Assembly: GCA_021805025.1 (NCBI GenBank)
Contig: JAJZGF010000004.1
Coordinates: 1-64,000 of the forward strand
Reading direction: 5' to 3'
From: Acidobacteriota bacterium
Lineage (GTDB): Bacteria; Acidobacteriota; Terriglobia; Terriglobales; Acidobacteriaceae
Length of the DNA: 64,000 bases
Within the stretch, counting starts at the first letter, position 1; each line of letters starts with the position of its first letter. Of this stretch, positions 53,718-64,000 are shown in pieces. The position numbers and the translations under genes were made by a program. The notes below the pieces were generated by a model. That model had not been told where the DNA came from and ran no database searches. It saw nothing but the letters and a program-made list of their open reading frames with translations.

Positions 53718-55049
53718 TCAGCGGCCCATGGCGGTTTGGATGAGGAGCCAGGCGTTGAGGGCGGCGATGAGGATGGCGGTGGCCCAGGCCAGCGTCTGCA
53801 ACCAGCGGCCGTTGACAAACTCGCCCATGCGCTTGCGGCTGCCGGTGAAGAGCACCAGCGGGATGACGGCAAAGCTGAGCTGCAGGGAGAGAATGACCTG
53901 GCTGAGGATGAGCAGCTTTTCAGTTCCCTGCTCGCCGGTGACCGCAACGACGATCACGGTAGGGATGATGGCCAGGCCGCGAGTGATGAGGCGGCGGAGC
54001 CACGGCGAGACGCGGATGTGGATGAAGCCCTCCATCACGATCTGGCCGGCGAGGGTTCCGGTGATGGAGGAGTTCTGCCCGGAGGCGAGCAGCGCGACGG
54101 CAAAGAGGGTGCTGGCGCCAGCGGCGCCGACGAGCGGGCTGAGGAGTTTGTAGGCGTCCTGGATGGCGGCGACATCAAAGTGACCGCTGCGATGGAAGAC
54201 GGCGGCGGCCACGACGAGGATGGCGGCGTTGACGAAGAGGGCAAGCGTGAGGGCCAGGGCGGAGTCGACGTTGGCGAGATGGATGGCTTCACGCTTGCCG
54301 GATGGCGTGCGCGGGTAGCGGCGGCTCTGCACGATGGACGAATGCAGATAGAGATTGTGGGGCATGACGGTTGCGCCCAACATGCCGATGGCGATGTAGA
54401 GCATGGCGGGGTCGGTAAGGATGGACGACGAGGGAAGGATGAGGTGGTGCAGGGCGGGCCAGTAGTCAGGCCGCGAGAGGAACATCTGCACGCCGAACAT
54501 CGCCAGGATGGTTCCGATGAGCGCGATGACCAGCGCCTCGATATAGCGGAAACCCCAACGCTGGAGGAGCAGGATGATCAGGACATCGAGGCCTGTGATG
54601 AGCACGCCGTAGAAGAGTGGAATATGGAAGAGCAGCTCGAGCGCGATGGCCGAGCCAATGACCTCGGCCAGGTCGCAGGCAGCGATGGCGATTTCGGCCA
54701 TGACCCAGAGGACAAAGCTGACCTTGGGGCCGTAACTCTCATGGCAGAGCTGGGCGAGGTCGCGCTCAGTGGCTACGCCGAGCTTGAGTGAGAGGCTCTG
54801 GAGCAGGATGGCCATGAGATTGGAGGCCATGATGACGAAGAGCAAGGTGTAGCCGAAACGCGAGCCTCCGGCGATGTCAGTGGCCCAGTTGCCGGGGTCC
54901 ATATAGCCGACGGAGATGAGAAAACCGGGGCCAAGGAAGCCGAGGAGCCTGCGCCAGTAAAAGGGTGAGCGGGAGACGCTGACGGTGGAGAAGACCTCCG
55001 GGAGGGAGGGCTCGGGAAGCGCGACCCGGGATGAAGTTTCTGTGGCCAT
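53718..55049 (-). CDS. mntH: NRAMP-type divalent metal transporter (Mn2+/H+)
   Basis: A 443-residue transporter with eleven helices. NRAMP signatures are DPGNW (Asp51, Asn54) in helix 1 and VMPHNLYLHSS in helix 6, which together bind Mn or Fe. It imports Mn2+ with protons. ATG 55049 fits the family; a TTG 55103 start would add 18 residues. It is downstream of mntR in the same direction, and the 97-bp gap holds tandem 10-bp repeats that may be the MntR site. Confidence 0.95.
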   Translation of the reverse strand: MATETSSRVALPEPSLPEVFSTVSVSRSPFYWRRLLGFLGPGFLISVGYMDPGNWATDIAGGSRFGYTLLFVIMASNLMAILLQSLSLKLGVATERDLAQLCHESYGPKVSFVLWVMAEIAIAACDLAEVIGSAIALELLFHIPLFYGVLITGLDVLIILLLQRWGFRYIEALVIALIGTILAMFGVQMFLSRPDYWPALHHLILPSSSILTDPAMLYIAIGMLGATVMPHNLYLHSSIVQSRRYPRTPSGKREAIHLANVDSALALTLALFVNAAILVVAAAVFHRSGHFDVAAIQDAYKLLSPLVGAAGASTLFAVALLASGQNSSITGTLAGQIVMEGFIHIRVSPWLRRLITRGLAIIPTVIVVAVTGEQGTEKLLILSQVILSLQLSFAVIPLVLFTGSRKRMGEFVNGRWLQTLAWATAILIAALNAWLLIQTAMGR

Positions 55050-55104
55050 GAAAAAGAGCTGAAGATGGTGGTGCTGATCTGTGACAATCTCAGTATGCCA
55101 CAAA

Positions 55105-55128
55105 CAGTTAATTGCAGTTAATTAATTA
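55105..55128. promoter_or_regulatory. Tandem repeats in mntH promoter, candidate MntR operator
   Basis: CAGTTAATTG and CAGTTAATTA are tandem 10-bp units (one helical turn) followed by more TTAAT sequence, immediately upstream of a plausible -10 CATACT on the minus strand. DtxR/MntR proteins bind AT-rich symmetric or phased sites near their targets. Position and phasing support this; identity is inferred. Confidence 0.45.
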
Positions 55129-55146
55129 ATCTTACTTTTAATTACA

Positions 55147-55812
55147 TTAAAACTCCGGCCGGAGCCAGACAGCTTCAGCGGCGGGGCGGCCAAGGATCGA
55201 AATGCCTGTAGGTAATTCAATGGAAACGGTTTGGTCGTAGTTCTGACTGAGGATGCGGAGGCTGCGGCTGGGACCGATGCCGGCGCCGTGGAGGAAGAGC
55301 AGGAGCTTGTGGTCGCGCTCATGGAGACTGACGACGGTGTAGCTTCGCCCTGGGACGGCCTCGGAGAGGGGCAGTTCTCCACGCTGTTTGCGCTGGGCGG
55401 GACTCTCGGGCAGGACGGAGTTGCCGTGCGGGCAGGCACCGGCTTCACCGAGTTTCTCTTTGAGCTTGGTTTCGAAGGCGGGCGAAACGGCGTGTTCGAG
55501 GCGCTCGGCTTCTTCGTGGATCTCATACCACTCCATGCCGAAGACCTCACTCAACATGCGCTCGATAAGGTGGTGGCGGAGGGCGGTGCGGTAGGCGGTT
55601 TCTCGGCCGGCTGGGGTGAGGCGGACGATACCGTCGGGGCCGACCTCGACGAGGCCGTCGCGCTTGAGGCGCTTGAGGGCCATGGTGACGGCGGGCGCGG
55701 AGACCTCGAGCCAGTGGGCGAGCGTGGCGGGGATGACCTGGTGGCCTTCGGCCTCAGCTTCGAGGATGGCCTTGAGGTAGTTCTCTTTGGAAACGTGGAT
55801 CGAGTCTTTCAT
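55147..55812 (-). CDS. mntR: DtxR/MntR-family manganese-responsive regulator
   Basis: A 221-residue metal-dependent repressor. Its N-terminal winged helix (about 1-65: IPATLAHWLEVSAPAVTMAL) is followed by a dimerisation and metal-binding helical domain (EVFGMEWYEIHEEAERLEH) and a C-terminal FeoA/SH3-like domain (about 145-221), as in long DtxR proteins. It directly precedes mntH, so it most likely represses it when manganese is sufficient. The first 40 codons and the promoter recur at 59474-59701. Confidence 0.92.
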   Translation of the reverse strand: MKDSIHVSKENYLKAILEAEAEGHQVIPATLAHWLEVSAPAVTMALKRLKRDGLVEVGPDGIVRLTPAGRETAYRTALRHHLIERMLSEVFGMEWYEIHEEAERLEHAVSPAFETKLKEKLGEAGACPHGNSVLPESPAQRKQRGELPLSEAVPGRSYTVVSLHERDHKLLLFLHGAGIGPSRSLRILSQNYDQTVSIELPTGISILGRPAAEAVWLRPEF

Positions 55813-55922
55813 GGCTACGCTGCCAGACTAGTCTATACGCGGGTGTGGGACGGAGGATTTCGAGAGAGGTGGAGGATGCAGATTGCGGACAAGTGAACCT
55901 GCACGGGTCAATGGGCGGGTTG
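55693..55922. repeat. Direct repeat copy A: mntR promoter plus first 40 codons
   Basis: This block recurs as copy B at 59474-59701 in the same orientation. The first 120 bp (mntR codons 1-40) differ at two positions, both synonymous. The 110-bp upstream part differs at about 20 positions with small indels. The leader includes the palindrome AGACTAGTCT (55825-55834), AGACCAGTCT in copy B. Confidence 0.9.
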
Positions 55923-55998
55923 CCCTGTTAACCATCTAACTGAGTGTGGCCGTCTTCGGAACGGGCCAAATCTACCGAATACCTCATGCGACGGTTGT

Positions 55999-58890
55999 TC
56001 AATATTCATAATCCAGGGAAAACTGAATGCGCCGCGCATCCGATTCCTGGAGAGGCGTGCCTAAATTCGGCGTCGCAGGCGCATTCGATCCGTACACCGG
56101 ATTCAGGAGATCCACGTTCTGCCGGTTCAACAGATTAAATGACTCGGCTACAATGTCGAGATGTCCGCGCCAGATAGGAAGCATCCTCAGCACGCGAAGA
56201 TCAAACTGCAACTGCGGGGGAGTCTGCAAACTATTGCGTCCGTAGCCAAGCGGCCTGGCCTCGAAAGGATAGCTGTGCTCGCGATTGCTGTCCACGCCAG
56301 TCAACGCATTATCGCGGAAGCCGCTGCTCGCCTGGAGAATCGGAGCAAATTCCAAGCCATACACGATCTTCTGGAACGCGTTGGGTTTTGCCGCGCGGGC
56401 AGCGTCCTCGGGGTCGTCGAGGTCGGGACCGATTACCCAGAGACCGCTCATCACGAATCGATGGCGCTGATCGTCCAGTGACGGAGAGCGCTCCTGCGCG
56501 AGCGCATAGGGATTCTGCGGCTGCTCGGCATCGATGGAAGCGTCATCGACGGTTTTGGAGAAGGTGTAGCCGGCCATCAGCTCGAACTCCTCAGTGAATT
56601 GCCGGTTCACGGTCAGTGTTGCACCGTTGTAGTCAGAGCTGGCTTCGGTCTGAAACTGGTTGATAGCGTCATATGCCGGGTTGAGGCGCTGTGGGGAAAA
56701 GACTAAACGGCCAAGCTGCTGCGGTGTGGGCGTGGGAATGTCGAGACTGGACGCGTTTTGAGCGGTGAGGAGGACAGGAGGCGTGAGGTTGCTGTTGATG
56801 GTGCGCCCAAGCTTTACACCACGAACGAAGCGATACTCGGCACTGACGGTCCATTGTGCGGGCAGTTGATGCTCAATGCCGAGCGATGCTGTTTCGGCGT
56901 ATGGATTTGCCAGGCCACGCTGCGCCTGCCAAACGCTCGGCGCAATGCCGGGAAGAGGTGCGGTGAAAGTCTGCCCGGACTGGTAGAGAGAGGCAGCTTC
57001 GGTGCCGTCGACAATCTGCTGCTGGGCGCGCACACCGTTGAACTCCTCGATGCGATTGACGGTGGAGAGCAGGTAACGATCGAAGAAGATGCCGAAGCCT
57101 CCGCGCACGACCCAGGGTCTCGACGGCGACCAGGCGAAGCCGAAGCGGGGACTGAAATTGAACGGGTGCTTCGGGAACGAAGAGGGTAAGCGGTTGTCTT
57201 CGTAGCGCAAGCCGTAATCCAGTGCGAGGCGGGACGACGGGGTCCAGTGATCCTGCAGCCATGCCGACGTGCGCAACTCGCTGAAGTTGGTATCGGGATC
57301 GCCGAAGTTCTGGGTGTAGAAATCGGGTTGCGCAGCCGCCAGGGCGGCCAGGGAAGGAAAGACATACAGGCCCTGGAAGCCGCCGAGATCAGCAGAGCGC
57401 AAAGCGATGTGGCTGGCAGCGATGCCGGCCTGGACGAGGTGTTTACCGTGCTGCCGGATGACGATGTTGCCAAGGTCGATGTGGGTTTCGTAGCGGCGGC
57501 TGTTCCCATCCCAGGGCGTGCCGAACTGCGCGATACCAGCGACAACGATGCCGGGCTCCTGGGTGACTGCTGTGCGCAGAGCAACTCGCCGCTGTGCGAC
57601 CTCGAAGTCGAGCTGGTTAAGCAACCGGGGCGAGAGCGTCCAACTCCAGGCGCCGTTGATGCTGTTGTCGTTGTAGAATGCCGACCCGCGTGTGCTCAGG
57701 TCGGAGAGATCGCCGGTATGGAAGGCGTCGTTGACGGAACGATTGTTGGTAAGCGCATAGCGAAGCATCATGCTCTGGGTCGCGGAGTCGCGGTCCAGCC
57801 GCCCGGAAAGCTCGATCTCCTCATTTGTGGTCGGGAAGAATCCCTGCTGCAAGCGAAAGCCGCGGAGAGCACCTGCCTGATTCATGGCTCCATCGATGGT
57901 GGCAGCAAGCGCTGGACCGAAGTCGCTCGCGTCTTCGCCACGCGCCAACTCCTGCTCGCCGGCGAGGTAATAGAAGAGGCGGTTTCTTTCGATGCGGCCT
58001 CCGGTGGAGAGCCCGGCGCGCAGACGACTCTCGTCGGGCTTGCGGGGGACGACTTCCAGAGCCGGTGTGCCGTTCAGAGCGCCGTTCTGCACGAAGAGAA
58101 ATGCATCGCCATGCTGGAGGTTTCCGCCCGAGCGCGTCTCTACGTTCACCGAGCCTCCCGCCGACCCGCCGGACTGTGCGGCATATCCGTGGTTTACGAT
58201 CTGGAAATCGCTAATGGCTTCCGGCGAAAGCTCCGTTCGGCTCAGGCCCGTGTATTCATCGTTATCGTCGGTGCCGTCAATGTAGAGTGCGTTGCTCGTG
58301 GGACGCAGGCCGCCGGCACTGAAGCCGCTGGCCTCGATTCCTGGAGTTTGCTGCGCGAGTGCCGGATTGGCCGCGGCGATTGCCGGAGCAAGCAGCGCGA
58401 AATTGAGATAATTGCGACTGGGGATAGGGAGTTCCTCGATGCGGTCTCGGTCGATGTTCGCCACCGGAGAAGTCTGGGAGGTGTCTAGTGCCTCTGTTTG
58501 CGAATGAACGGTGACCTGTTGTGTGGCGCGTGCTGGAGCCAGCCGCACGGTGATGCTGGTGTTCCGCCCAACTGCGACGGCGACGGAGGGATTTCGCCAG
58601 ACGGCAAAGCCAGTGGCTGAGACCGCAAGCTGATAACTTTGACTTGGTAGGTTGAGTAAGACAAACGTGCCATCGGCGCTGGTAATCGCGTCGCGCCGGA
58701 CCGCGTTATCCAGCGAGGAGGCTGCGACGTGAGCTCCGGAAACGACGGCTCCAGATGTGTCCGTGACCGTACCGGACAGGCCGCCGAAGGTCACGCCAGA
58801 CTGAGCCGACGCATACGGATAGAAAAGAACGAGAAGAAAGACCGAGGGGACAAATTGCCGCAGGAACACGGCCAACTGGGAACGATGCAT
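55999..58890 (-). CDS. TonB-dependent receptor, Oar-like with carboxypeptidase-regulatory domain
   Basis: A 963-residue outer-membrane protein. Signal peptide (about 1-30), carboxypeptidase-regulatory-like domain (about 37-125: GLSGTVTDTSGAVVSGAHV), plug (about 145-260: ELPIPSRNYLNF...NALYIDGTDDNDE) and a large barrel ending FSLDYEY. This Oar type is greatly expanded in Acidobacteria and is often assumed to import glycans or other large ligands. ATG 58890 has GAGAGG 7 nt upstream. It sits between the intact mntR and the mntR fragment, in the same direction. Confidence 0.9.
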   Translation of the reverse strand: MHRSQLAVFLRQFVPSVFLLVLFYPYASAQSGVTFGGLSGTVTDTSGAVVSGAHVAASSLDNAVRRDAITSADGTFVLLNLPSQSYQLAVSATGFAVWRNPSVAVAVGRNTSITVRLAPARATQQVTVHSQTEALDTSQTSPVANIDRDRIEELPIPSRNYLNFALLAPAIAAANPALAQQTPGIEASGFSAGGLRPTSNALYIDGTDDNDEYTGLSRTELSPEAISDFQIVNHGYAAQSGGSAGGSVNVETRSGGNLQHGDAFLFVQNGALNGTPALEVVPRKPDESRLRAGLSTGGRIERNRLFYYLAGEQELARGEDASDFGPALAATIDGAMNQAGALRGFRLQQGFFPTTNEEIELSGRLDRDSATQSMMLRYALTNNRSVNDAFHTGDLSDLSTRGSAFYNDNSINGAWSWTLSPRLLNQLDFEVAQRRVALRTAVTQEPGIVVAGIAQFGTPWDGNSRRYETHIDLGNIVIRQHGKHLVQAGIAASHIALRSADLGGFQGLYVFPSLAALAAAQPDFYTQNFGDPDTNFSELRTSAWLQDHWTPSSRLALDYGLRYEDNRLPSSFPKHPFNFSPRFGFAWSPSRPWVVRGGFGIFFDRYLLSTVNRIEEFNGVRAQQQIVDGTEAASLYQSGQTFTAPLPGIAPSVWQAQRGLANPYAETASLGIEHQLPAQWTVSAEYRFVRGVKLGRTINSNLTPPVLLTAQNASSLDIPTPTPQQLGRLVFSPQRLNPAYDAINQFQTEASSDYNGATLTVNRQFTEEFELMAGYTFSKTVDDASIDAEQPQNPYALAQERSPSLDDQRHRFVMSGLWVIGPDLDDPEDAARAAKPNAFQKIVYGLEFAPILQASSGFRDNALTGVDSNREHSYPFEARPLGYGRNSLQTPPQLQFDLRVLRMLPIWRGHLDIVAESFNLLNRQNVDLLNPVYGSNAPATPNLGTPLQESDARRIQFSLDYEY

Positions 58891-58990
58891 CAAATAACCT
58901 CTCAATTGAGTGCGCGCGAGTTATGGGGGACAGCAGGCGCACGAAAGCGCACCGGAGCTGTCGTTTCCAGCGGGTCTCACAAGAGAGAAA

Positions 58991-59356
58991 TCAGATTCTG
59001 AGGGCTACGACAGGGGGACTGCTGGTCGGTTCGGCATATTTATCGCAGGCTGGGGAAGAGAAGGTGGGGATTTGCCGAGGGCAATCGACGCGCTTCACGC
59101 CACCTGTGAAAGCCGGGATGTAACGCATCAATTTCGCCATCACCAGCACAAAACCGGCGCCAACCACCCAGGCAGTCAAATGGAGTTCAGTGTCGTTGAC
59201 TGGAGCGGCGGCTGGACCCTTGTCCCAGGTATCGAAGTAATTCGCCAGCGGTGTCATTGCCCCAAGGAAGACAACTAGAGCTACGACGATTTGGAAGATT
59301 CGCTTCGACACTTGGCAAGGATAAATGAGAAGGCGGGCGACTTGCCAGTTTCGCAT
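58991..59356 (-). CDS. Small two-helix membrane protein, possibly expressed as a DtxR-fragment chimera
   Basis: A 121-residue protein with two membrane helices (about 22-40: IVVALVVFLGAMTPLANYF, and about 58-78: VVGAGFVLVMAKLM) flanking the segment APVNDTELHL. It resembles short acidobacterial membrane proteins of unknown role. ATG 59356 has no strong ribosome-binding site. The same frame is open upstream through the 115-bp repeat into the mntR fragment, so a 200-residue fusion from ATG 59593 is an alternative product. It precedes the TonB receptor by 100 bp. Confidence 0.55.
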   Translation of the reverse strand: MRNWQVARLLIYPCQVSKRIFQIVVALVVFLGAMTPLANYFDTWDKGPAAAPVNDTELHLTAWVVGAGFVLVMAKLMRYIPAFTGGVKRVDCPRQIPTFSSPACDKYAEPTSSPPVVALRI

Positions 59357-59357
59357 A

Positions 59358-59472
59358 ATCGCCGAGTCACTCGTGGACTGGCAGGCTGGTCTCGATGGAT
59401 TGACACAGCACAACCAGGAACCCACAGACATCCGATGCAGGAATACATGGGGTTTGCTGGGCGGGAGAACTG
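59358..59472. repeat. 115-bp direct repeat, copy 1
   Basis: Matches 61853-61967 over all 115 bp without gaps and with about 14 mismatches, in the same orientation. Both copies keep the palindrome GAGTCACTC near one end and ATCCGATGCAGGAATACATG near the other. Copy 1 ends right where the mntR fragment begins and starts 1 nt before the ATG of the small membrane protein. No transposase or terminal repeats are seen. Confidence 0.85.
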
Positions 59473-59473
59473 G

Positions 59474-59593
59474 GGGCGCGGAGACCTCTAGCCAGTGGGC
59501 GAGCGTGGCGGGGATGACCTGGTGGCCTTCGGCCTCGGCTTCGAGGATGGCCTTGAGGTAGTTCTCTTTGGAAACGTGGATCGAGTCTTTCAT
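59474..59593 (-). pseudogene. Truncated mntR copy (40 codons)
   Basis: Identical in protein to the first 40 residues of the intact MntR (to LEVSAP). It lacks the recognition helix, metal sites, dimer interface and FeoA-like domain. The frame does not stop but continues into the repeat and the small membrane protein gene. Confidence 0.8.
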
Positions 59594-59701
59594 GGCTGCG
59601 CTGCCAGACCAGTCTATACGCAGCGGGGACGGAGGACTCTGATGGGTGGGGAGGATGGATGTTGCGGACAAGCCGACGGCGATGGGTCAATGAGCGGGTT
59701 G
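59474..59701. repeat. Direct repeat copy B: duplicated mntR promoter and N-terminus
   Basis: Second copy of the block at 55693-55922. It contains the mntR leader, ATG 59593 and codons 1-40, then switches at 59473 to the 115-bp repeat. Only the first two helices and part of the winged helix survive, so it cannot act as a normal metal-dependent repressor. Confidence 0.9.
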
Positions 59702-59755
59702 GCTTGTTGTCGCGGAATGAGCACCGGATTGGTAGACGGACGCGGAATATTTCGT

Positions 59756-60196
59756 ATGGTTAACTCATTTGGGGGCAACAGAGTGATCGACTGCAGAGCC
59801 GCTACGAAGAGTTATGCCTCTCAGCCTGTTCTCCGAGGCGTAGACCTGGTCGTTGAACCGGGCATTTGTGCCTTACTGGGGGCTAACAGTGCTGGCAAGT
59901 CCACGCTGCTGCGCTTGCTCTCCGGGCTCGAAGAGCCAGACAGTGGTTCTGTGTCCATCGGCGGACTGGGTTTCCGAGATCATGGAGTTGAAATCCGGCG
60001 GAATCTAGGTGTACTGCCCGAGGAGCTCGGGTTGTTCGAGTCTTTGACCATCATCGAAAACCTGATGGCAATTGGACCTATTTACGGACTCACGAGACGC
60101 GAGACAGAAGCACGAGCAACGAGCCTACTAGAGTTACCTGTTATTCACGAGCCGGGACTGATCGCTTCAATGGGAAGCGAGCGGCTAGCGGACTAA
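59756..60196 (+). pseudogene. 3'-truncated ABC transporter ATPase
   Basis: An ABC-2 type ATPase fragment of at most 146 residues. It has the N-terminal VIDCRAATKSYASQPVLRGV, Walker A GANSAGKST and the Q-loop region (NLGVLPEELGLFESLTIIEN). It stops at ERLAD, where the signature LSGGQ should begin, so Walker B and the H-loop are missing and ATP hydrolysis is impossible. Starts at ATG 59756 or GTG 59783. Its end overlaps the 3' end of the marR gene by 12 bp, suggesting that the junction created the stop. Confidence 0.8.
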
Positions 60197-60646
60197 CGGG
60201 CTCTCCCAGACGCGGAAAAGCAACTCCTTGAGTTGTGAGAAATCCTTTGGGCCAAGCTCTGCACGCCATTCGCGCTCGATTTCGCGGAGCACTTCCAGCG
60301 CCTTGGCCCACGCGGCGTGTCCGCGCTTTGTAAAGCGGACAATTCGTGCGCGGCCCTCATCCGGCGCGTCGGATCGGACCAAATATCCCAGATTTTCGAG
60401 ACTCCCGAGCAGGCGATTCATTGCCTGTTTGCTCATTCCAGCGCGCTCGGCAAGAACGCCGGGGCGGAAACCGTCGGGGCCGGGAAACCGGAAGAGTGCC
60501 ATGTGCGGCGGACTGAGTTCCGTAAAGCCCGCTGTATTCAGATCGCGGAGGATACGCCGGTGAATGGCCTCGGCCGGAACACGCAGCAGCGCGCCGATGA
60601 GCATGTCCTTGGTTTTGATAGGCGAATTTTCCTTAAATAAACTCAT
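60185..60646 (-). CDS. MarR-family transcriptional regulator
   Basis: A 153-residue winged-helix regulator: LAERAGMSKQAMNRLLGSLE is the recognition helix region and DEGRARIVRFTKRG the wing. ATG 60646 is the start; a -10-like TACTAT lies 8 nt upstream, so the mRNA may be nearly leaderless. It is divergent from the cupin gene at 60718, and a perfect palindrome between them probably serves as a shared operator. The ligand is unknown. Confidence 0.9.
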   Translation of the reverse strand: MSLFKENSPIKTKDMLIGALLRVPAEAIHRRILRDLNTAGFTELSPPHMALFRFPGPDGFRPGVLAERAGMSKQAMNRLLGSLENLGYLVRSDAPDEGRARIVRFTKRGHAAWAKALEVLREIEREWRAELGPKDFSQLKELLFRVWESPLVR

Positions 60647-60674
60647 TGACAATGATAGTAAACGATGTTTACTT
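60646..60674 (+). promoter_or_regulatory. Cupin gene promoter with MarR-type operator
   Basis: TTGACA (60646-60651) and a -10-like TTTACT (from 60668) flank the perfect palindrome GTAAAC-GAT-GTTTAC (60658-60672), which overlaps the -10. On the minus strand the same palindrome overlaps a -35/-10 pair (TTTACA and TACTAT) for marR. Binding here would shut both promoters. Confidence 0.7.
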
Positions 60675-60717
60675 TCTATGTAAAGGTCAACAGAGTTTAC
60701 CGCATGGAGAGACCAGA

Positions 60718-61245
60718 ATGGCAATATTGAAGCACAGCAACGAAGGGAATGGATCAGCAACTCTGTCGCAGAGCAACCGAGTGATGCATGTCCCTCGGGG
60801 AAGCGGCGCGGCCTACTGGGGCCCCGGCGAGTTAATGACGTTTCTCATTACGGGCAAAGAGACAGACGGCGCATTCTTTCTGGCGGAGGTATCTGTCGTC
60901 CCCGGCGGAGGCAAACCGCCGCACGTTCACCATCGCGAAGATGAGTCGTTCCACATTCTCGAGGGCACTCTGACAATGCGGGTGGGCGAGGATACAATCA
61001 CGGCATCGGCTGGAGACTTCGCATTTCTTCCCCGCGGAATCCCTCATTCATTTCGAAACGCAGGTGACAGCCAGGCAAGGGCTCTGGTGTTAACCACTCC
61101 GGGAGGCCTTGAAGGCTTCTTTACTGAAGTGTTCGAGCCTGCCATGGACCGTTCAGCGACGCCGCCTTCTTCAAGCAAAGAACTGATCGGCCGGGCGCTC
61201 GCGGCCGTCCCCAGGTATGGGCTGGAACTTCTGCCACCTGCATAA
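60718..61245 (+). CDS. Cupin-domain protein
   Basis: A 175-residue single-cupin protein. Metal-binding motif 1 is PHVHHREDESFHILEGTL (His-x-His, Glu/His set) and motif 2 is PRGIPHSFRN. Similar proteins include quercetinase-like and unknown oxygenase or isomerase enzymes. ATG 60718 has GGAGAG upstream. It is probably regulated by the divergent MarR protein, and followed 44 bp later by another cupin gene. Confidence 0.85.
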   Translation: MAILKHSNEGNGSATLSQSNRVMHVPRGSGAAYWGPGELMTFLITGKETDGAFFLAEVSVVPGGGKPPHVHHREDESFHILEGTLTMRVGEDTITASAGDFAFLPRGIPHSFRNAGDSQARALVLTTPGGLEGFFTEVFEPAMDRSATPPSSSKELIGRALAAVPRYGLELLPPA

Positions 61246-61289
61246 GGAACGACGCAAAGTCGAATAAGCATTAAGAGACGGACGTCTCA

Positions 61290-61772
61290 ATGCCAATGGA
61301 TACTATCAATCCATGTGTAAATCCTGCCGACGAAACGATCCGCCTGGGGTCGCTCGCCGTGCGCTTTCTAGTGACAGGCGAGAACTCGTCCGGCACAGTC
61401 GCAGTCTTTGAGGTCCTTATCCCCGCAGGGCAGCGTTTGATTGCGCCTGCGCACAGCCACGACCATTACGAGGAGACAGTCTACGGCGTTGAGGGTGTGT
61501 TGACCTGGACCGTGGACGGCAAGCCGGTCGACGTGGGCCCGGGCCAGGCACTCTGCATTCCGCGGGGCTCCGTTCACCGGTTCGATAACAACGGCACGGA
61601 AGACGCGAAGACGCTGACCATTGTCACACCCGCGGCGATCGGCCCGCAGTTCTTCCGGGAGTGTGCCGAAGTAATCAATGCGGCGGTGGGTGGTCCGCCT
61701 GATCGCGCGAAGATGGCGGAGATCATGTACCGCCATGGGTTGACTCCGACTCCCCCTGCGCCTCAGGCGTAG
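61290..61772 (+). CDS. Cupin-domain protein (second of pair)
   Basis: A 160-residue cupin with motif 1 APAHSHDHYEETVYGVEGVL (His, His, Glu ligands) and motif 2 PRGSVHRFDN. It differs clearly from the first cupin, so this is a pair rather than a recent duplication. Likely co-transcribed with the preceding gene. The substrate is unknown. Confidence 0.85.
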   Translation: MPMDTINPCVNPADETIRLGSLAVRFLVTGENSSGTVAVFEVLIPAGQRLIAPAHSHDHYEETVYGVEGVLTWTVDGKPVDVGPGQALCIPRGSVHRFDNNGTEDAKTLTIVTPAAIGPQFFRECAEVINAAVGGPPDRAKMAEIMYRHGLTPTPPAPQA

Positions 61773-61852
61773 ACTGACACGCATCGAGCCAACGATTACC
61801 CTTCATTAGCGAACTAGAGCTGGAAGTCGCCGCAATCCTTGGTTTGTGCAAG

Positions 61853-61967
61853 ATCGCCGAGTCACTCGCTGACTTGCAGGCTGGGCTCGATGGATTAACA
61901 TAGCACGACTAAAAATGCACGGACATCCGATGCAGGAATACATGGGGCTTGCTGGGCGGGAGAGCTG
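61853..61967. repeat. 115-bp direct repeat, copy 2
   Basis: Second copy of the element at 59358-59472. Here it lies alone in the 259-bp gap between the second cupin gene and the lipoprotein gene and has no gene attached at either end. Confidence 0.85.
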
Positions 61968-62031
61968 CGGGGTGCGTGGCGCTCCGGGGAGGAGCGCCAC
62001 GCATTGATTGCGAGGTTGGTGCGGGTTGGGG

Positions 62032-63471
62032 TCAGTTGCCTTCCGGAGTTTCAGGGGTTTCCGGCTGGGCGATCTCAGAGGCGGTCAGCAGGTAGTTGCC
62101 GCTTTGATCGACAAGCAGATAGCCGTGGACCTGGATGGGGGTGTTAGCAGCCAGCGAGGTGAAGCTGGAAGCGGTGAGGCCGTTGCCGTATTGGGTGTTG
62201 GGCCCTGCGACGGCGTTGAGCGTGACGAGCTTCTCATAGCTGCTGAGGAAGGACGGCACGGGGAGAGCGAGTGAGAAGTCGAGGTTGGAGCCGGAGGCCT
62301 GCGGGGCCGCGGCGAGGACGCCCGCAACGTTCTCACCGCCAAGGGTGATTTGCGTGGCGCCGAGGTTGCCGCTGGAATCCATGGCGCCGCCGACCATCAC
62401 GGCCTGGCCGGGGAAGATCTCCGAGGCGTTGAACATGGAAGCGCTGAGGCCGAGCTGGGTTGCATCCTCATTGATGCCGTAGGTGGTGGAAGAGGCGACG
62501 AGCACGTTGAGGGTCATCGCAGACGGCATCATGGAGCCGAAGTCTTCCTGCGGGACCATGGTGAAGCTGGTGAGGTTGCCTGCTGTATTACGCGCCACCA
62601 TCACGACGATGCCCTTGGCACCCTCTTCCTGCTGGCCGGAGCCCATCATTCCGGCGACAAGCGGGGTGATGGACAGGGCGAGGAGTGTTCCGTCGCTTTG
62701 CGTCTGGCCCTTAACCTGGACAATGGAGTTCTGGGCAATGGTGGCGGGGGTTACGCCGGACGGGAAAAGGGTGGAGCCGTTGATGGCGAAGGTGAACTGC
62801 TGGCCGGAGTCTCCCGATTGCACGGTGATGCTGGTGGAGCTGATGGCGACAACCATGCCGGTGACTTCGACTTCGCGGTCGGTGTTATTTTCATTCTCGA
62901 CCTGAGCGGCGGAGGTGCTGATCGCCGGAGTGAAGGTGACGGTGGAGCCGGAAATCGCGAAGGACTGCGCGAGGTTGAAGGCGAGGTGGAGATCGACCTC
63001 ACTGGTGGTGGTGAAGCTGAGAGCGGGATTGAGGGCCACAGTGACGGAGGGCGAGCTGAGCGTGGCGCTGGCCGTGACAGGCTGACCGGTGGTGGGGTCG
63101 AGATAGGTGACCTGCGCGGCAGAGACCGTGACGGTGACGGAGTTGTATGTGCCGGGCGCAAGGCTGGTGAGCTCGATGGGCTCCTGCATGGCGCCGAGGC
63201 CGGAAAGCTCGACGGTCTCGGGGTTCGAGAGCACACTGACCGGCGATCCGCCGGTGGGAGCCACGGCAATGGCGGAGAGGGTGATTTTGGCGGACAGGAT
63301 ATTGCCCAGGGGCGCATCACTCACGGTGATGACCATGGGTGCGGAGCCTGGCTGGTTAGCCGTGGTTCCGCCTGCCGCGGTGGACATGGAACTGCAGCCC
63401 GCGAGGAAAAAGAGTCCTGTGAAAGCGGTTGCGCCGAGGATACAGAGTTTCCAATTTGATGCCATCTTCAT
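62032..63471 (-). CDS. DUF4382/DUF5666-type exported lipoprotein
   Basis: A 479-residue lipoprotein with lipobox FFLAGC, then a DUF4382-like beta domain (about 45-195: VITVSDAPLGNILSAKITLS) and repeated DUF5666-like OB-fold segments (about 200-470, for example VTGMVVAISSTSITVQSG and VQVKGQTQSDGTLLAL). Such proteins are common and abundant in Acidobacteria, and their function is unknown. ATG 63471 has GGAGGT 8 nt upstream. Confidence 0.85.
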   Translation of the reverse strand: MKMASNWKLCILGATAFTGLFFLAGCSSMSTAAGGTTANQPGSAPMVITVSDAPLGNILSAKITLSAIAVAPTGGSPVSVLSNPETVELSGLGAMQEPIELTSLAPGTYNSVTVTVSAAQVTYLDPTTGQPVTASATLSSPSVTVALNPALSFTTTSEVDLHLAFNLAQSFAISGSTVTFTPAISTSAAQVENENNTDREVEVTGMVVAISSTSITVQSGDSGQQFTFAINGSTLFPSGVTPATIAQNSIVQVKGQTQSDGTLLALSITPLVAGMMGSGQQEEGAKGIVVMVARNTAGNLTSFTMVPQEDFGSMMPSAMTLNVLVASSTTYGINEDATQLGLSASMFNASEIFPGQAVMVGGAMDSSGNLGATQITLGGENVAGVLAAAPQASGSNLDFSLALPVPSFLSSYEKLVTLNAVAGPNTQYGNGLTASSFTSLAANTPIQVHGYLLVDQSGNYLLTASEIAQPETPETPEGN

Positions 63472-64000
63472 GGTGCTATACCTCCAAATCGATCTGCCGG
63501 AACCTGCGGCTGGCGATTGCGCGGTCCTGGGTGATGAAGCCGTCCGATGCCGCGGTGAGATTGCAGCGAGGCACCGCAAGAAGCTCCGTTCAAAACATGG
63601 GCCGATGGCTTGTGCCTGGGCAGTCGGGATTCCCGCCGCCTCTTGGACATATGGGTGCCGGCCGATGCATTTAACCATCGGCGTCGATCCGGGGTGAGAG
63701 AGGGCTGGCGGCGCGGATATTGAGCCCGGACCGGCAGAGAAAATAAAATGCGTATCATAGCGATATAAAACGAGTTACCTTCAATATCGTTCATCCGGCG
63801 GTGGCGCTTGGAGAACAAGGCTACCCTCCACGACCAAGGCAGGATCGAAAAACCGCGAACCGAGTCGGCGAAGAGACGGCCCGACGGGCAGCGAAAGTAT
63901 TCCAATTACAATAGGGCGCCGGCGCAAAGCAAAAATATAGGGGTAAGATGAATTCTTTCCGGGGCCGCGCGTTTTGTCAGACGAAGCTGTGACAAAAAGG
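63472..64000. other. Right-edge region without a recognised gene
   Basis: No coding frame is convincing. On the minus strand a weak promoter for the lipoprotein gene may lie at TTGAAG (63779-63784) and TATGAT (63754-63759), but the spacing is 19 nt, longer than usual. A long leader of about 280 nt would result. Plus-strand ATG 63949 has GGGG before it but stops after 14 codons. A gene may begin at GTG 63988 at the edge. Confidence 0.35.

Follow-up and report, generated by a model that had tools for sequence, protein, structure and literature searches.

At the locus studied here, the start of mntR runs in frame into a small membrane protein, which raises the question of whether the joined frame encodes a new membrane-tethered regulator or is a trace of recombination. 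We favour the second answer, at a probability of roughly 0.78: the chimeric frame would be a recombination seam at a cassette-exchange locus, with the fusion a by-product and not a new membrane-tethered regulator. The window, meaning the whole stretch of DNA analysed, comprises 64,000 nucleotides from an Acidobacteriota genome (G000) that was compared with 79 other genomes of its genus.

The reading frame and its surroundings

Positions 59593–58991 on the minus strand hold an open frame of 200 codons plus a stop, leading from an MntR start through a repeat into a two-helix protein. This confirms the arrangement described in a sequence-only reading of the window, in which a second mntR leader and codons 1–40 continue in frame through a repeat into a membrane protein to give 200 residues. 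The first part of the frame (59474–59593) is a truncated copy of mntR codons 1–40 that differs from the intact gene at 2 of 119 nucleotides (GCT/GCC and CTC/CTA), both synonymous, and the near-identity of the coding parts reported earlier thus stands; the duplication is well past chance (E=3e-77). Joined to mntR codon 40, with an overlap of a few bases, is repeat A (59353–59476, minus strand), a copy of the 3′ flank of a gene to which we give the working name secr. Repeat A is followed after 41 bp by the small membrane protein, SMP (58991–59311, minus strand), and hydropathy places two hydrophobic stretches in the C-terminal part of the 200-residue frame. The repeat had been given as 115 bp; it is present, at a length of about 120 bp (59353–59476 and 61848–61971). 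Openness of the frame through the repeat is not beyond chance, as 993 of 5,000 dinucleotide shuffles of the 162-bp linker were also open.

As a regulator, the fusion is incomplete. It scores 18.4 bits against the DNA-binding profile PF01325, under the 26-bit cut-off, and covers positions 5–39 of the 60 in that profile only. PF02742, the metal-binding and dimerisation domain, is undetected in the fusion at E-values up to 1 and is present in the intact gene (55147–55812, minus strand), a member of the DtxR/MntR family with a FeoA domain (PF01325, PF02742 and PF04023). Codons 1–40 of the fusion therefore correspond to the N terminus of MntR, but the end of the DNA-binding domain, the metal-binding and dimerisation domain and the FeoA domain are all missing.

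From secr onwards, the window reads secr, repeat B, cupin genes, a MarR gene and an ABC remnant, the resident leader with mntR codons 1–40, repeat A, SMP, a TonB-dependent receptor, a second leader, intact mntR and mntH. The border gene secr (62032–63678, minus strand) has DUF4382/DUF5666 domains (PF18914, PF14321), and repeat B (61848–61971, minus strand) lies directly 3′ of it. The resident-side cargo consists of two cupin genes (61290–61772 and 60718–61245, plus strand, both PF07883), a MarR-type regulator (60185–60634, minus strand, PF12802) and a truncated ABC ATPase (59783–60196, plus strand), which matches positions 2–90 of 137 in PF00005 only and has as its best NCBIfam match drrA, far under that model's cut-off. 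Downstream of SMP is the TonB-dependent receptor (55999–58905, minus strand, Pfam CarboxypepD_reg and OMP_b-brl_4), which we take to be Oar-like. The Nramp-family gene mntH (53718–55103, minus strand, PF01566) is 88% identical to the gene that follows mntR in genome G083. The ABC ATPase, which retains the first two thirds of its domain and adjoins the resident mntR leader, is a second broken gene at the site. Base composition was rejected as a mark of foreign DNA, GC content being 0.54–0.66 over 53–64 kb with no clear step.

The repeat and gene order in related genomes

Repeats A and B are 85–86% identical, and the repeat has matches in 5 of the 79 other genomes (E≤0.001), three near full length and two over 29 and 36 bp. 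All four other near-full copies (repeat B and those in G026, G083 and G091) directly follow secr, each with a different right neighbour, and the similarity of all five copies breaks off at roughly one point past the repeat. Repeat A is followed by SMP, repeat B by the cupin genes, the G083 copy by a MarR gene and the G091 copy by a reading frame that by eye resembles leucine-rich-repeat proteins; just past the repeat in G026 stand a tyrosine integrase and an IS91-type transposase (L055, 7599–9676). When followed through the four other copies, the frame of the fusion stays open in G083 alone; the remaining three (repeat B, G026 and G091) each interrupt it with a stop.

The nature of the repeat was considered separately. 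A coding role was rejected: beside the stops in the fusion frame, a further frame that stays open in A, B, G026 and G091 is stopped in G083. A known structured RNA and a tRNA were likewise rejected, as a search of 58800–62200 against Rfam gave nothing up to E=1 and the window contains no tRNA.

The G026 element begins about 70 bp after the repeat, and one-ended transposition of the IS91 type, as an alternative to exchange between homologous loci, could in principle have relocated the secr 3′ flank. We regard this as quite improbable, given that such an element occurs in one of the four other repeat contexts, that no transposase was recognised by eye in the list of open reading frames for 54000–64000, and that transposition leaves the mntR duplication unexplained.

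Five other genomes carry secr at ≥70% identity, and in two of them, G083 and G080, mntR follows. The G083 order is secr, repeat, MarR gene, a gene for 109 amino acids, leader, mntR and mntH; in G080, secr and mntR are about 6 kb apart with other cargo between them, and no match to the repeat was detected there. Among the remaining secr-bearing genomes, G026 and G091 have no mntR match, and in G018 the two genes are on different contigs. Because secr, cargo and mntR follow in this order in G083 and G080, it is the fragment that stands at the position mntR occupies there, and the intact gene of the window lies behind the TonB receptor. Taken together, the repeat borders and the differing cargo indicate that the window holds two tandem units, each made up of repeat, cargo and an mntR leader in that order, with the apparent chimera as the seam between them.

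Cargo between secr and mntR differs among G000, G080 and G083, and the right border of the repeat differs in G026 and G091. The region 3′ of secr is thus a possible cassette-exchange spot, and the stretch from secr to mntR a place where the genus may exchange gene cargo. Ranking the genomes by secr identity gives G026 (95%), G091 (84%) and G083 (82%). The use of rpoB as a species yardstick led to no conclusion, as its ranking (G091 97.8%, G083 92.3%, G026 89.4%; 12 of 18 genomes matched, the G000 copy lying at a contig end) conflicts with that of secr.

Origin of the two mntR starts

The two copies of codons 1–40 are preceded by different leaders. The leader ahead of the fragment (59594–59708, minus strand) is of the resident type: it is 87% identical to the G083 mntR leader over 121 bp and, in a 117-bp alignment, 75% identical to its counterpart ahead of the intact gene. 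Its 30 bases closest to the ATG equal those of the G083 leader. The leader ahead of the intact gene (55813–55929, minus strand) is of another type, with 77% identity to G083 over 120 bp and 75% to the fragment leader. When the four leaders were aligned, clear homology was confined to the last 120–125 bases or so of each. From these comparisons the fragment looks like the start of the resident mntR, and the two leaders appear to differ by origin.

Divergence of the leaders, earlier put at about 20 of 110 bases, is real and had been understated: 33 of 121 aligned positions differ, in addition to indels, made up of 6 among the 35 positions nearest the ATG and 27 among the 86 further upstream. Across the coding part, synonymous differences between fragment and intact gene occur in 2 of 38 eligible codons, as against those 33 of 121 leader sites (p=0.003). 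The contrast had been read as the product of selection on the encoded peptide or of gene conversion, the assumption being that even drift is what a dead fragment would show. That assumption does not hold here, since the two leaders seem to stem from separate lineages, and the contrast between coding part and leader needs no selection on the chimera. Selection on a peptide cannot make synonymous sites alike, and of the two proposed causes only recombination or conversion is upheld, by homogenised synonymous codons and by site patterns that switch at the start codon.

These patterns come from a three-way alignment of intact gene, fragment and G083. At variable leader sites, the fragment agreed with G083 in 22 cases, the intact gene with the fragment in 6 and the intact gene with G083 in 7, with all three different in 6; the corresponding counts at variable coding sites were 0, 5, 1 and 1. 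The difference between leader and coding part is significant on the first two classes (Fisher p=0.0019) and with the third pooled into the second (p=0.0060). Expressed over two-way sites, the fragment matches G083 in 22 of 35 leader positions and the intact gene in 5 of 6 coding positions, the test thus resting on six coding sites. The change-over lies in the interval from −5 to the 12th coding base, which points to recombination or conversion close to the start codon.

A lower rate of synonymous change at the start of the gene (codons 1–40) was ruled out as the cause of the likeness. Among pairs drawn from 40 mntR loci, pairs that are not independent of one another, synonymous change was 0.495 in codons 1–40 and 0.501 in codons 42–215; the loci were those for which leader and gene were retrieved, out of 71 genomes with an mntR match. 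Between the intact gene and G083, synonymous differences affect 6 of 38 codons in 1–40 and 53 of 147 in 42–219, with 26 codons showing amino-acid changes set aside (p=0.019). The low divergence of the intact gene over codons 1–40 is consistent with conversion that made its start more like the resident type.

Phylogenies temper how far the intact gene can be called foreign. In the first tree part, fragment and intact gene fall with G083; in the second, G083 falls with G080 and the intact gene outside them (support 0.74–0.91). This topology agrees in direction with the site patterns, but in neither part does the intact gene move far from G083 and G080, and since the tree of mntR nucleotides 121–654 groups it with these two (support 0.74), the case for the rest of mntR being foreign is weak.

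We infer the following donor and order of events. Incoming DNA would have come from a related strain carrying repeat A, SMP, the TonB receptor, a leader and mntR. At one end it would have been joined illegitimately to the resident mntR at codon 40, and at the other end, as the site patterns suggest, exchanged homologously within mntR. This exchange, or later gene conversion, would have made the two copies of codons 1–40 alike, and the upstream open frame into SMP would be accidental. Unequal exchange between two alleles would lead to the same product. The order presumed for the donor was not found in any genome seen: a search with the second leader returned only G083 (77%), G080 (74%) and a 51-bp match in G091 to the end of the TonB receptor gene, and mntR matches were absent from the 12 SMP neighbourhoods retrieved.

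The junction at mntR codon 40 is non-homologous, and in a draft assembly split into 320 contigs two strain variants might have been joined by mistake. The number of contigs and the strain-like divergence of the duplicates speak for such an artefact. With repeat B as the guide, only a handful of bases are common to both sides of the junction, an overlap too short for a graph join of the ordinary sort, and the junction lies within an 88.8-kb contig; we therefore hold an assembly error to be very improbable.

The proposed recombination seam resembles known processes. Homology-facilitated illegitimate recombination is described in one source for Streptococcus pneumoniae, Acinetobacter baylyi, Pseudomonas stutzeri and conjugation in Escherichia coli (PMC3240628), and would share with our case one homologous end, here mntR, and one illegitimate join; in contrast to what that source reports, the process here is deduced from one draft genome, and the search for a donor found none. 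The same mechanism has been put forward for Vibrio cholerae, where gene arrays are stacked (PMC5361080). The type VI secretion immunity-gene arrays treated there are alike in that a cassette is added at a constant border and a remnant of the older arrangement persists, whereas the cargo here is not effector or immunity genes, only two cassettes are present and it is the border gene whose 5′ end persists. A fusion-like frame with a conserved coding part and a diverged leader can thus arise without selection on the fusion, where leaders differ in origin and the coding part is homogenised.

The small membrane protein and the fusion

SMP has relatives in 14 of the 79 other genomes (E≤0.001), and the starts of all 14, as read, align with the GTG at 59311 and not with the MntR ATG. 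Six nucleotides before this GTG is TATCCT (59318–59323, minus strand), a putative −10 box. The pattern TANNNT occurs 6–7 nt upstream of all 15 SMP starts (the window's own and those of the 14 relatives), with its first T some 12 bp ahead of the start codon, although motif and spacing were set after viewing these upstream sequences and several of the relatives are close kin and not independent. Its background was 2.4% in shuffled upstream sequences and 1 of 41 among mntR starts used as a control. A clear −35 element is absent from the window's copy. TANNNT is known as a signal of leaderless genes in bacteria, found in three of three Acidobacteria genomes at a mean of 13.3% of genes according to one survey (PMC3160421); SMP begins 6–7 nt past such a motif, as those genes do, and is a candidate leaderless gene. 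We infer that SMP is probably expressed from its own GTG, near its own −10-like box, and that the fusion lacks a function.

A functional chimera, in which the N terminus of MntR is tethered to the membrane, made, and kept by selection on the peptide, draws on the 200-codon open frame and on the synonymous nature of both coding differences. Translation from 59593 is possible, and because the resident start and the near leader match G083, the 200-residue product may still be made. Against its being selected are the synonymous sites, whose homogenisation is beyond the reach of peptide selection, and the identity of the 40 encoded residues in fragment, intact mntR and G083, which makes their conservation nothing peculiar to the fusion. 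The fragment also stops at position 39 of the 60-position DNA-binding profile, without PF02742. A search of relatives for the same fusion, suggested earlier, found none inside a contig in the 79 other genomes, and G000 alone among the 80 has a truncated mntR start inside a contig; mntR matches occur in 70 of the 79 others, and two N-terminal pieces (G023 and G076) lie at contig ends. A degenerate pattern of the junction, covering only the codons written into it, had no exact match in the GTDB genome collection, which may omit this genome, and no MntR membrane fusion was named in the titles and abstract openings of the literature searched.

A half winged-helix tethered to the membrane, the new arrangement that had been suggested, is therefore unsupported: the truncated mntR start is seen inside a contig in one of 80 genomes, the fusion frame is interrupted in three of the four other repeat copies, and SMP has its own start and box. 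We consider it extremely unlikely that selection maintains such a protein, and equally so that ribosomes beginning at the resident MntR start read across the seam, producing a membrane-tethered MntR N-terminal peptide of 200 residues that serves the cell, for instance by placing the TonB receptor under manganese-linked control.

Compatible with a recombination seam is the idea that the resident mntR promoter also drives SMP and the TonB receptor, bringing them under manganese control. The resident leader lies upstream of the SMP–TonB pair on the same strand, and the two terminator-like sites in 58900–60300 are both on the other strand. A consensus scan of that same interval found no sigma-70-like promoter, and SMP has a conserved −10-like box of its own, and we judge such control unlikely.

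SMP itself is unmatched in Pfam and NCBIfam up to E=1, and the family members tested (from the window and L029–L042) have none above cut-off; they are two-helix proteins of about 100 amino acids, most of them ending in PPxxxxLRI or near that. The pair of SMP and a TonB receptor is found in the window and in 4 of the 12 retrieved neighbourhoods (G079, G080, G083 and G091). No TonB receptor stands beside SMP in G026, which has the best SMP match, and L052 gave only weak hits several kb off. A GH127 gene lies beside the pair in G080 and G083, with a GH42 gene further on in G080. In G025 (L053, 2142–3530), about 150 bp separate an Nramp-family gene, 28% identical to mntH, from an SMP relative downstream of it, an arrangement that would leave room for a link between SMP and metal uptake.
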